Assembly (NCBI GenBank): GCA_949744905.1
Contig: CATKCE010000074.1
Coordinates: 1 to 48,636 of the forward strand
DNA length: 48,636 nucleotides
Direction: 5' to 3'
From: an uncultured bacterium
GTDB lineage: Bacteria > Bacillota > Clostridia > Christensenellales > Pumilibacteraceae
Shown: positions 13,866-48,009 of the stretch, one piece after another
Layout: every line of letters begins with the position of its first letter
Numbering within the stretch: position 1 is the stretch's first letter
Notes under the pieces: model-generated
What the model saw: the letters and a program-made list of their open reading frames with translations, nothing else
Told to the model about the DNA's origin: nothing
Databases searched by the model: none
Translations under genes and position numbers: made by a program

Positions 13866-15026
13866 ATGGACGTTTTGGAATACGGATACGTATCGCTTAA
13901 TAAGAAAAACGAGGAATTGTGCGGCGACAAGGTTGAAATGATACCGTCGCCTCAAGGCGGGGCAACTTTAGTGCTTGCAGACGGACTCGGCAGCGGAGTC
14001 AAGGCAAATATACTCTCCACCCTTACAAGCAAGATCCTTTGCACCATGGCGGCGGCGCATGTCCCTTTGGAAGAATGTATAGATACCGTTGCGGGAAGTC
14101 TTCCGGTGTGCAAGCAGCGCGGAGTGGCGTATTCCACGTTTTCGCTACTTACTCTCGCGTCCGACGGTAGCGGATATCTCGCCGAGTTCGACAATCCGCC
14201 CGCCATACTTCTGCGCGGCGGAAAGTGGGTGCCTCTCGAGCGCGCCGAGCGAATATTCGGCGGTAAAAAACTGTACGTAAGCAAAATAGAACTCAGGCGG
14301 GGCGACGTAGTGCTCATGATGAGTGACGGAGTGGTGCACGCGGGCGTGGGCGAAACTCTCAACTTCGGATGGGACATAAAAGAGATACGCGAATTCGCCG
14401 AGATCCAGTACGACCCCGCGCTTTCGGCGCGCACAATGGCGAGCATAATGGCAAACGCGTGTTACGAACTGTACGGTCACCGCCCCGGCGACGACACCAC
14501 CGTGCTTGCCGTAAAATACCGCGCGCCGCTTACCGTAAATATGATGATAGGTCCGCCTTCAAACGCCGAGAGAGACGGCGCGGTGGTAAAGGAATTTATG
14601 GCGCAGGAGGGAAAGCGCGTCGTGTGCGGCGGCACTTCCAGCCAAGTGGTCGCGCGCGAGCTCCGCACGTCGGTCACAACGAGTTTCGACTACATAGATA
14701 AGGACGTTCCGCCGATCGGCTATATAGACGGCATAGACCTCACTTGCGAGGGAGTGCTCACGCTTAAAAAACTGCTTGTTTACGCCGACAAGTACGTGTC
14801 GGTATCCGACCCGGACGTAAAACTGTTTAAAGGACGCGACGGCGCTAGCCTGCTTGCCAAACTATTGCTGGTGGACGCGAGCGAAGTCAATCTGTTTGTG
14901 GGGCGGGGAGTAAATCTCGCGCACGAGGGACTCGGCATAGACAACAAGACCAAGCTCGATTCGGTGGTGAAACTTATAAATATACTTAAATCGCTCAATA
15001 AAAAGGTCGAGATAAAATATTATTGA
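13866..15026 (+). CDS. SpoIIE-type PP2C serine phosphatase with C-terminal extension
   Basis: LADGLGSGVKAN, GDVVLMMSDGVVHA, GDDTTVLAVKY motifs; about 150 additional residues after the phosphatase domain. Confidence 0.83.
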   Translation: MDVLEYGYVSLNKKNEELCGDKVEMIPSPQGGATLVLADGLGSGVKANILSTLTSKILCTMAAAHVPLEECIDTVAGSLPVCKQRGVAYSTFSLLTLASDGSGYLAEFDNPPAILLRGGKWVPLERAERIFGGKKLYVSKIELRRGDVVLMMSDGVVHAGVGETLNFGWDIKEIREFAEIQYDPALSARTMASIMANACYELYGHRPGDDTTVLAVKYRAPLTVNMMIGPPSNAERDGAVVKEFMAQEGKRVVCGGTSSQVVARELRTSVTTSFDYIDKDVPPIGYIDGIDLTCEGVLTLKKLLVYADKYVSVSDPDVKLFKGRDGASLLAKLLLVDASEVNLFVGRGVNLAHEGLGIDNKTKLDSVVKLINILKSLNKKVEIKYY

Positions 15027-15055
15027 AATATTGCGTTTTACGCCCCTTTTAATGT

Positions 15056-15084
15056 TTGCCCGCTTTGCCCGAATGTGGTATACT
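15056..15084 (+). promoter_or_regulatory. Internal promoter before the second hydrogenase gene
   Basis: TTGCCC-N17-TATACT, flanked by CCGAATG-N11-CATTCGG. Confidence 0.6.
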
Positions 15085-15149
15085 TTCATTCGGAAAGGCG
15101 GGTAAACCGTGATCGACGGCGTTACTTCGATAAAAAGATAAAGAGAAAT

Positions 15150-16592
15150 ATGGAAAGAGTTTTCGATACAAAAGTTCAGTTGTTAAAGTACAAAGCGCTT
15201 AAAGCGGTGATAGAACGCGCGTATGCCGGCACGCTCGAGCAGGCTTTGTACGAGATACCGAAAGAGATAGTGCCCGGTCCCAAATCGGACATGCGTTGCT
15301 GTATATACAAGGAGCGGGCGGTGCTTAGCGAGCGCGTGCGCATGGCGATGGGCGGCGATCCCGCAAATCCCAACGTTATAGAAACGCTGCCGGTCGCATG
15401 CGACGAATGCCCCATGGAAACGTATTTCGTAACGCCTGCATGCCGCGGTTGTATAAACCATAAGTGTATGGACGTGTGTCCGCGCGGCGCGATATCGATA
15501 GACGGCAGGACGGCAAAGATAGACGCCGACAAGTGCGTGGAGTGCGGCAGATGCGCAAAGAGCTGTCCTTACGGCGCGATAATAGAGCTTGCCCGTCCGT
15601 GCGTAAAGGCATGCAAGATCGGCGCGCTGAAAATAAGCGACGACAAAACGGCGGTGATAGACAACGACAAATGCGTCATGTGCGGCGCGTGCGTTTACAG
15701 TTGTCCGTTCGGAGCGATAGTGGATAAATCCTATGTTTTGGATTGCGTAGAAATACTTAAAGAGGCGGAAGCCAGCAAACGTAAAGTTTACGCCATAATC
15801 GCGCCGGCTATAGTGAGCCAGTTCAAGTACGCGAAAATAGAGCAGATAGTCGAGGGCATCAAAAAGCTCGGGTTCCACCAGGTGATCGAGACCGCCATGG
15901 GCGCGGACATCACTCTCGGCAAAGAGATGGAGGAACTCAAAGAGCGCGACAAAATGACCACAAGCTGTTGCCCCAGTTTCGTAATGTACATAGAACGGCA
16001 TTTTCCCAAACTGAAACAGTACATTTCGTCGTCTCCCAGTCCCATGGTGGAAGCGGCTCAATTGATAAAACGCACGTCTCCGGGAAGCAAGGTAGTGTTT
16101 ATAGGGCCGTGCGCCTCAAAGAAATACGAGTATAAGTTGGAAAAGACCGGCGGCGCGGTGGATTGCGTGATATCGTTTGAGGAATTGCAGGCGTTTTTGG
16201 ACGCGCGCGGTATAGACGTTTCGTCTTTGGAAGAATCTCCGCTCAACAACGCGTCCAAGTACGGCAGGATATTCGCAAAGAGCGGCGGCATATCGCAGGG
16301 CGTAAAAGAACTGAAAGAGAAGTACGGCATACAAAAAGATATTTGTCCCATAGCTCTCAACGGGCTGGAACAGATAAGACTGAATATGCTTAAAATGAAC
16401 GCCGGCAAACTGCCGGAAAACTTTATAGAGGGCATGGCGTGCGAGGGCGGTTGCCTCAACGGTCCTTTGTGTCTCAGTCACGGCGATAAAAACGTATTGG
16501 ACGTGGATAAGTACGGCGCGCAGGCGCGCGAGCAGGATATAGCCGCCAGCCTTACTTTGTACGAAATGACCAAAGAAATGGAGAAAAAATAG
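15150..16592 (+). CDS. [FeFe]-hydrogenase-family protein with multiple [4Fe-4S] motifs (group B/HfsB-like)
   Basis: TTSCCPSFVMYIERHFP, FIGPCASKKYEY, GMACEGGCLNG H-cluster motifs; CVECGRCAKSCP and CVMCGACVYSCP ferredoxin motifs. Confidence 0.88.
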   Translation: MERVFDTKVQLLKYKALKAVIERAYAGTLEQALYEIPKEIVPGPKSDMRCCIYKERAVLSERVRMAMGGDPANPNVIETLPVACDECPMETYFVTPACRGCINHKCMDVCPRGAISIDGRTAKIDADKCVECGRCAKSCPYGAIIELARPCVKACKIGALKISDDKTAVIDNDKCVMCGACVYSCPFGAIVDKSYVLDCVEILKEAEASKRKVYAIIAPAIVSQFKYAKIEQIVEGIKKLGFHQVIETAMGADITLGKEMEELKERDKMTTSCCPSFVMYIERHFPKLKQYISSSPSPMVEAAQLIKRTSPGSKVVFIGPCASKKYEYKLEKTGGAVDCVISFEELQAFLDARGIDVSSLEESPLNNASKYGRIFAKSGGISQGVKELKEKYGIQKDICPIALNGLEQIRLNMLKMNAGKLPENFIEGMACEGGCLNGPLCLSHGDKNVLDVDKYGAQAREQDIAASLTLYEMTKEMEKK

Positions 16593-18104: not shown

Positions 18105-18989
18105 TCAAAGAACTTTGGACAAAAAGTCTTTAAGCCTGGGGTTGTCCGGACTTTCGAACACTTGGTCCGGAGGACCCTGCTCAACTATTTTGCCGCCGTC
18201 CATAAACATGACGCGGGTGGCTACTTCTCGGGCAAAGCCCATTTCGTGGGTGACTATCACCATGGTCATTCCGCCGCGGGCAAGCTCTTTTATCAGCTCC
18301 AACACTTCGCCCACCATTTCGGGGTCGAGCGCCGAAGTCGGCTCGTCAAACAGCATTACTTTGGGATTCATGGCTAGCGCACGCACTATTGCTATGCGCT
18401 GGCGCTGTCCGCCGGAGAGGGTGGAGGGATATGCGTCCGCCTTGTCGGCAAGTCCTATGCGTTCGAGCAGTCTCAATGCGTTTTCACGCGCTTCGATTTT
18501 TATCTGTTTTAATGTTTTGCCGTAGTTAATAAGAGGTTCGCGTTTGTCTTTTTTTCGAAACAGATTTTTTATCCGCGTAAAAAAGTTCTTAGTACGCGTT
18601 TTTCTCAGGTCCTGCTTTTGTACGTGCACCGGCGCGAGCATGATGTTTTTTATTACGTTCATGTTGTTGAAAAGATTGAACTGTTGGAACACCATTCCCA
18701 TGCGTCGGCGTTGCAGATTGATGTCTACTTTGAGATCGCAAAGGTCGTTGCCCTCGAAGAACACATGGCCGTCGGAGGGGTCTTCGAGAACGTTGAGACA
18801 ACGCAAAAAAGTGCTTTTGCCGCTGCCCGACGGTCCTATCACCGCTATCTTTTCGCCTTCGGTGATCTTTTCGCTGATGTCGTCGAGCACTTTGAGTTGT
18901 CCGTAAGATTTGGTAAGGTGCTGTACTTCTATGAGAGCCGCGGGGTCGGGCGCTACTGCGGGAGTTTTTTCTTTTTTATTTTCTTTCAT
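18105..18989 (-). CDS. Polar amino acid ABC transporter ATP-binding protein (GlnQ-like) with an internal insertion
   Basis: [66 protein letters not shown]. Confidence 0.93.
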
Positions 18990-19659
18990 TCCTGCGCAGT
19001 CTCCTTTCCGCCAATCGTATTATTACGGTGAATATTATGATGATCGCAAGATACACGACCGCCAGCATTATGTACGGCACTATGAATTCGTATGTTGCGC
19101 TGGATATCGCGCGGAATGCGACCGTAAGGTCGATGGTGCCTACAAAACCCGCTACCGAAGTATCTTTTGTAAGAGCGATAAGTTCGTTGCCGAGAGTGGG
19201 GATAACGTTTTTTACCGCTTGCGGAAACACTATTTTAAGCATGGCGGCGGGGTAGCTCAGTCCGAGAGTTCTGCCCGCTTCGAGTTGACCCGCGTCTACC
19301 GACAGTATGCCGCCGCGCATTATCTCTGCAACATAAGCTCCGCTGTTTAGTCCGAATACAAGTATTGCTTCCGTGAGTCCGTCGATATCGACCGAAGCGA
19401 ATATAATAAAGTGGAATACGAGGAGCTGGACTACGATGGGCGTGCCGCGGAATATCCCGGTGTACACGTCTCCCGCGACCGAGAATACTTTGGCGACTTT
19501 GTTCCGTCTGCCCGCGACTTGCACGCACGCCACGATCGTTCCTATCGCTATTCCTATTATAAGACCGCATATAGCTATGACGAGCGTGTTTCTGAGTCCG
19601 AGCAGAATGTTTTTATAGGCGCCTTCGGTATAAAACTGTTTCCAAAAGATCTGCCACAT
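18976..19659 (-). CDS. Polar amino acid ABC transporter permease
   Basis: [64 protein letters not shown]. Confidence 0.93.
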
Positions 19660-19663
19660 ATAA

Positions 19664-20608
19664 TTATTTTGCTTGTTTGTTTATCGCGTCCACCGATGAG
19701 ACGAGCGTGTCCTTGTCTCCGACGACGAATTTGAGCTTGCCGTTGGAAAGGTCTTTTACCGCAAGTCCTATTGTACTGTAACTTTTGGCATTCACTTTGG
19801 GGAATCCGGGGAAGTCGAAGTCGGTGCTTCCGGTTATGTAAAAGTATCCGGTCTGTCCGGTCGCCGCGCCGGCGTTGACTTTGCCCATTCCCTCTATTAC
19901 CGCGCGCACGTCGGCTTCGGTAGCGCAACTGTCGAAAGCCGTTTCGCCTTCATGGACGGCAATACGCTGGGTGGTGAGATAATATCCGCGCGAAAAGGTG
20001 ACTACCTGCTCGCGTCCGTGGTTTATAGTAAGCCCCGCCATTCCTATGTGGGCGTTGCCCTGTTCTACTTCGGTGATGACTACTTCGAAGTCTATGTTCT
20101 TTATTACGAGAGTTTTATCCATGGTGTCGGCAAGTATTTTTGCTATCCACATGTCGATACCGGCGTATTTACTGCCGTTTTTGTATTCGAACGGTTCGAA
20201 TTCCGCGTTTGTGGCGACTATAAGGCATTCGCTTTCGGTCTTGTCGGAGGGGACGGAGGCGGGGACTTCTCCCACGTCTCTCGCGGTGCCGCCGGTGACG
20301 GCGTCGTAAATGGTCTTAAAAGTGACTTTTTCGGGCGTTCCGTCACCGTCGAAGTCGTACTGTATGCCTTCGGCTTCAAAGTCCGGGGCTTCGGGGTTAT
20401 ATGCGGAAGATCCGCACAGTTTTTCGAGTAGGTCGTTTACCGACGTCATTATCGTCGTATTGCTTTTGGATACGCAGTAACCGTACTGTTCGCCGGTAAG
20501 AGTTATATCGATAACTTTTACTTTTTTCAATGTCGAACATGCCGTCATGGAAAGTGCGGCGACTACCGCGATAACGGCGGCGGTAAGCGCGCGTAACGTC
20601 TTTTTCAT
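19664..20608 (-). CDS. Amino acid ABC transporter substrate-binding lipoprotein, circularly permuted SBP_bac_3
   Basis: Lipobox LSMTAC; LTGEQYGYCVSKSN (normally C-terminal) precedes ECLIVATNAEFEPFEYKNGSKYAGIDMWIAKILAD. Confidence 0.88.
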   Translation of the reverse strand: MKKTLRALTAAVIAVVAALSMTACSTLKKVKVIDITLTGEQYGYCVSKSNTTIMTSVNDLLEKLCGSSAYNPEAPDFEAEGIQYDFDGDGTPEKVTFKTIYDAVTGGTARDVGEVPASVPSDKTESECLIVATNAEFEPFEYKNGSKYAGIDMWIAKILADTMDKTLVIKNIDFEVVITEVEQGNAHIGMAGLTINHGREQVVTFSRGYYLTTQRIAVHEGETAFDSCATEADVRAVIEGMGKVNAGAATGQTGYFYITGSTDFDFPGFPKVNAKSYSTIGLAVKDLSNGKLKFVVGDKDTLVSSVDAINKQAK

Positions 20609-47932: not shown

Positions 47933-48009
47933 TGGTAGCGGTAGTTGGATTCGAACCAACGACCAATCGGGTATGAACCGAGTACTCTAGCCAGCTGAGC
48001 TATACCGCC
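47933..48009 (-). tRNA. tRNA-Met (CAT anticodon, elongator-like)
   Basis: Minus strand GGCGGTATAGCTCAGCTGGCTAGAGTACTCGGTTCATACCCGATTGGTCGTTGGTTCGAATCCAACTACCGCTACCA: cloverleaf, TTCATAC anticodon loop, encoded CCA. Confidence 0.93.

Follow-up and report, generated by a model that had tools for sequence, protein, structure and literature searches.

The window, i.e., the whole stretch of 48,636 nucleotides analyzed here, comes from a gut bacterium and carries on its minus strand the gene of a substrate-binding protein (SBP), which is the first gene of an ABC-importer operon and is followed by permease and ATPase genes. The first-pass annotation had given the right coordinates for this gene and no strand. 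The features of the locus are as follows:

19664–20608 (−): gene for an apparently circularly permuted substrate-binding lipoprotein, 314 aa (ORF 20608..19664; Pfam PF00497, 1.3e-18)
20540–20608 (−): lipoprotein signal peptide, residues 1–23, with the lipid-modified Cys24 next (sequence ...LSMTAC)
20288–20527 (−): moved block, residues 28–107, assigned by homology and model as second hinge strand and lobe-1 C-terminal helices
20321–20413 (−): insertion inside the moved block, residues 66–96, with an Asp-rich turn (DFDGDG)
20228–20287 (−): joining linker, residues 108–127, bridging the former C-terminus and the former N-terminus (alignment A1; model)
19667–20227 (−): canonical core, residues 128–314, comprising the N-terminal part of lobe 1 and lobe 2 (Pfam, GlnBP alignment, model)
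18976–19659 (−): polar amino acid-type ABC permease (BPD_transp_1; Pfam PF00528, 1.9e-21)
18105–18989 (−): ABC ATPase (Pfam PF00005, 1.3e-33)

The permease gene starts 5 bases past the last base of the SBP gene, and the ATPase and permease genes overlap by 14 bases; this adjacency is that of a polar amino acid importer. The nearest NCBIfam models of the permease include GlnP, and the top model of the ATPase is GlnQ (1.2e-88), both below the respective cut-offs; indeed, no NCBIfam equivalog cut-off was reached by the SBP, the permease, or the ATPase. The window protein is the sole PF00497 match found in the source genome, which is 91.7% complete. Six other genomes searched from the same genus gave no match to it, so the operon is patchy within this genus, reflecting loss or horizontal gain.

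The lipobox of the window protein (...MTAC24) is followed by STLKKVKVIDITLTGEQYGYCVSKSNTTIMTSVNDLLEKL, and Cys24 does not vary among permuted relatives, whether in an alignment of 17 sequences or in one of 62. The first-pass annotation had assigned the block after the lipobox to the C-terminal tail of canonical SBP_bac_3 proteins, and residues 28–65 do correspond to the hinge strand and helix of that tail. Aligned with the C-terminal tail of the canonical relative L006, the N-terminal block scores 72, compared with a mean of 23, an SD of 4.4, and a maximum of 46 over 2000 shuffles. The remainder of the window protein scores 20 against the same tail, under its own shuffled mean of 25.8; therefore, the protein retains no further copy of the tail. 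Profile–profile comparison of permuted blocks (74 sequences) with canonical tails drawn from outside the permuted clade gave a probability of 99.5% (E = 1e-22). The block of the window protein alone matched canonical tails at 95.8% (E = 8e-9), and comparisons of the block with the remaining three quarters of the fold gave 1.2% or less. PF00497 covers residues 129–285, equivalent to profile positions 1–114 of 132, and its score of 67.5 bits, against a curated cut-off of 26.4 bits, places the protein in SBP_bac_3; when the window sequence was artificially re-ordered, the score rose to 72.8 bits. The chain departs from the canonical order, in which the hinge strand and two helices come last: here, this tail sits N-terminally. 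As in a natural permutant, the moved segment is homologous to the opposite end of the canonical chain, and the original end holds no copy of it.

AlphaFold modeling with 62 native permuted relatives as input predicted a confident single bilobed fold for the window protein (pLDDT 95.0, pTM 0.87). In this model, strand 30–46 is the second hinge strand, and helices 51–65 and 97–105 the C-terminal helices of lobe 1, the latter helix occupying the place of the last canonical C-terminal helix and being preceded by a short hairpin insertion. The modeled chain ends after the lobe-2 helix 299–312, with neither a return strand nor lobe-1 helices behind it. Its predicted strands and helices follow the same cyclic order as those of the relative L062, but from a different starting point; L062 belongs to type B, which is cut earlier in lobe 2 than type A, the topology of the window protein. 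The type B relative model, built from 8 sequences, has a pLDDT of 87.4 and gave poor sequential matches. A Foldseek search of the PDB with the window model returned amino-acid SBPs as the best matches, with TM values by target of up to 0.70 against canonical SBPs and approximately 20–26% identity in most of the best alignments. Only about 184–190 columns were aligned for targets of about 225 residues, as expected when a sequential aligner meets a permuted chain. Sequence and profile searches found no solved structure with this topology.

In GlnBP, the small domain comprises residues 90–180, and the second hinge strand residues 181–185 (PMC7400645). GlnBP residue 173 is the counterpart of V30 in the window protein, and K314 falls at nearly the same position, so the cut cost the chain few residues, if any. 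Since the cut maps within the GlnBP small domain, the new termini are in lobe 2, shortly ahead of the second hinge strand. The permuted ends proposed by the first-pass annotation hold, but they are placed within lobe 2, some 8 residues ahead of that strand, and not at the hinge. Similarly, a joining linker is present at about residues 108–127, but the segment named as such, DFDGDGTPEKVTFKTIYDAVTGG, is not simply a linker and holds helix 97–105 (KTIYDAVTG) and the short hairpin insertion before it. In GlnBP numbering, cut A lies at about 172 and cut B at about 110, just before the KIGVQxGTTG strand; both are in lobe 2.

Collectively, the tail homology, the absence of a tail at the canonical end, and the single two-lobed predicted fold support the view that the window protein is a true circular permutation of the SBP_bac_3 chain, as had been suggested at first sight. 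An N-terminal block that is merely a domain added before a complete SBP, with no permutation at all, appears extremely improbable. Pfam does place the SBP domain in the core only, and the block alone gives no Pfam match, which was the check that the first-pass annotation had recommended; since the block is too short, this test is too insensitive. An added domain is contradicted by the profile match of the block to canonical C-terminal tails and to no other part of the fold. Moreover, the coverage of TIGR01096 extends from 5 to 250 in the canonical L006, against 17 to 190 in the window protein and 16 to 187 in the type A relative L110, and the predicted model stops after the last lobe-2 helix; the extra domain beside a complete SBP fold that would have spoken against a permutation is not seen in it. 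In the arginine-binding protein ArgBP of T. maritima, the C-terminal helix is swapped in a dimer, and an exchange of the hinge strand between two molecules is conceivable here as well, in which case the protein would be a domain-swapped dimer and not a permuted monomer. This arrangement is also unlikely, although less remote than an added domain: with some 20 residues of linker and a confident model of a single chain, a monomer is sufficiently explained, and the block and linker of type A proteins form a compact unit of 56–105 residues. An assembly or gene-calling artefact was ruled out because the topology recurs in many genomes, including those of named strains.

The ligand contacts of GlnBP include Gly68, Thr70, Arg75, and Asp157 (PMC7400645). 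By alignment to GlnBP, the first three correspond to G192, T194, and R199 of the window protein, and D298, read by eye from its flanking sequence, corresponds to Asp157. All four residues are invariant in alignment A1 (17 permuted relatives); among 62 permuted relatives, G192, R199, and D298 are invariant and T194 is nearly so. The residues for the α-carboxylate and α-amino groups of the ligand (GlnBP Arg75 and Asp157) are thus kept, by alignment, as R199 and D298. Because these contacts are conserved, the ligand is likely an amino acid. As both the fold and the ligand residues are kept, the protein would close on a polar amino acid in the usual flytrap manner and may hand it to the adjacent permease. 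A search with Rfam for a riboswitch or T-box as a clue to the ligand was negative for the window and for 16 relatives. The insertion formed by residues 66–96 (window 20321–20413 (−)), whose full-length form is found in the nearest relatives of the window protein, contains a DxDGDG-type turn that resembles a calcium-binding loop; such an insertion also occurs in L085, L086, L088, and L042, with D/N variation.

The first-pass annotation had supposed that other Clostridia carry similar permuted proteins, and a scan of genome contigs agrees with this. It gave at least 594 pattern matches. All proteins read at the best 80 of these loci are type A, in a scan that ranks by likeness to type A and is therefore uninformative on topology proportions; their hosts include Christensenellales, Lachnospiraceae, Oscillospiraceae, and others, and type A proteins are present in the named strains Acetivibrio mesophilus N2K1 and Thermoclostridium caenicola DSM 19027. 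Topology was read from the offset of the match to a query consisting of the canonical core twice in tandem. A non-redundant set of 170 proteins, i.e., ORFs at the fetched loci, comprises 75 of type A, 26 of type B, and 69 labelled canonical. The cut positions cluster sharply at these three places, with one clear exception, L081:1396-2448 (−), which is counted as canonical in the set of 170. Its termini are in lobe 1: it starts with YYGLDMEIAQ, and at its end a linker resembling that of type A leads into the first strand (KQLVVLTNVPFSPFEYLA). This is a fourth topology with a single example. No further clear lobe-1 cut of this kind was found among 20 genomes of the same family. Where enough downstream sequence was available, a permease and an ATPase follow 83 of 84 type A genes and all 19 type B genes.

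Trees were built on re-ordered sequences. The 170-row tree requires 13 topology changes and a careful 84-row tree 11, with starred branches forcing at least 5 for type A, at least 3 for type B, and at least 7 for canonical, in an alignment of 235 columns where recombination among paralogues could mimic repeated switching. Holding types A and B together against the canonical rows was rejected (p-AU 1.6e-7), as was type B as one clade (p-AU 9.6e-5). When the clearly independent cases L232, L211, L213, and L081 were removed, 9 changes were still needed, and a single clade, as one gain without reversal would give, was again rejected (p-AU 5.1e-5). L232:1917-2720 (+) has the type A cut, yet it groups with the canonical L182 in another SBP subfamily, and because of this grouping it seems to have reached cut A independently. 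In the other direction, L004 and L008 are canonical and nested in a type A clade, and their C-terminal extensions (YTYTNP and FTYTNP) resemble the linker of their type A relatives. The nesting together with this extension suggests that both reverted to the canonical order; taken alone, the resemblance would also be compatible with the opposite direction, i.e., a tail that later turned into a linker.

Permutation by duplication, a model described previously (PMC2096629), offers a route. Under this model, SBP genes would have been duplicated in tandem and fused, and the product trimmed at either end to give the permutation; the termini of the family may have moved more than once since, including back to the canonical place. 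Three genes, L217:749-3778 (−), L218:1345-5001 (+), and L219:1334-3730 (+), look like the fused intermediates it predicts: they consist of a second-half SBP, one to three whole SBPs, and a first-half SBP fused to a permease. For L218, which extends past the stretch read, this composition comes from alignment spans and the position of the Pfam permease only. Against the inner C-half, the N-terminal half of L217 scores 190, compared with 30 against the inner N-half; the last piece of L217 shows the reverse. Trimmed to its two end halves, such a half-whole-half array is a type B protein. These arrays support permutation by duplication in relatives, and no intermediate was found for the lineage of the window protein itself. 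For type A, the tandem SBD1-SBD2 of L. lactis GlnP (PDB 6h30) is instructive: profile A1 matches the SBD1 tail, the linker, and the SBD2 core, an arrangement from which type A could be trimmed, although both GlnP SBDs are complete and canonical. Taken as a whole, a permuted type II amino-acid-type SBP, probably binding a polar amino acid, born by duplication and with termini moved repeatedly, is a highly probable explanation of the window protein. The broader proposal is somewhat less certain but still rather probable: that this family in Clostridia switches topology repeatedly and reversibly between the canonical order, A, B, and a rare lobe-1 cut, driven by tandem SBP duplication, with cuts concentrated in lobe 2 and the anchor switching lobes. 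If true, the chain termini are a freely evolving trait in this SBP family.

Since cuts A and B are both in lobe 2, the lipid tether has moved from lobe 1 to lobe 2. Type A SBPs fused directly to their own permease occur in L220:1790-3433 (+) and L228:1306-2880 (−). The permutation could be adaptive, in that a lobe-2 tether improves docking to the permease or spares the ligand-binding lobe strain, a reading that competes with near-neutrality and not with permutation itself. In its favor, the lipidated N-terminus ends up in lobe 2 with either of the common cuts, many tethers are short (in most cases about 3–15 residues), and the C-terminus joined to the permease in the two fusions is also in lobe 2; a similar idea has been put forward for TpMglB-2, whose authors suggested anchoring as a reason for its permutation (PMC4990184). 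Against it, canonical versions persist, the cut of L081 falls in lobe 1, and L004, L008, L033, and L006 seem, from where they sit in the tree, to have reverted. Adaptation is thus possible but doubtful. The apparent reversions among close relatives look like tolerance of the change and not a need for it, and for this reason we lean toward a permutation that is nearly neutral for binding.

Compared with GlnH/GlnBP and SBP_bac_3 proteins in general, the window protein has the same predicted fold, ligand residues, and operon of lipoprotein, permease, and ATPase, but the last ~45–60 residues of the canonical chain come first. TpMglB-2 (Tp0684), of "Type Ic / Cluster Bc", is a type I sugar-binding lipoprotein whose chain is permuted, and Gram-positive gut bacteria also have relatives of it (PMC4990184). 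It is likewise a natural circularly permuted, lipidated binding protein of an ABC importer; however, it has a sugar-binding type I fold, belongs to another family, and has one reported topology. The best matches of the window protein are type II amino-acid SBPs, not the Type Ic / Cluster Bc fold, and no report of permuted type II SBPs was found in the open-access literature searched. Circular permutation is usually described as rare and once-only. Here, closely related genomes contain several topologies of one family, canonical members branch within permuted groups, and half-whole-half fusions resemble the expected intermediates. Because the cut differs among the clostridial relatives of the window protein, the rewiring of a chain may happen repeatedly within a single family and may also be reversed. 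Natural proteins thereby allow direct tests of the duplication route, the choice of cut site, and the role of the anchored lobe. For annotation, domain searches call permuted SBPs truncated and overlook the moved part.

Elsewhere in the window, two ORFs were recognized by eye at 13866–16592 (+), one for a SpoIIE-like phosphatase and, after it, one for an iron-sulfur, hydrogenase-like protein, and a tRNA gene at 47936–48009 (−) is the only Rfam match.
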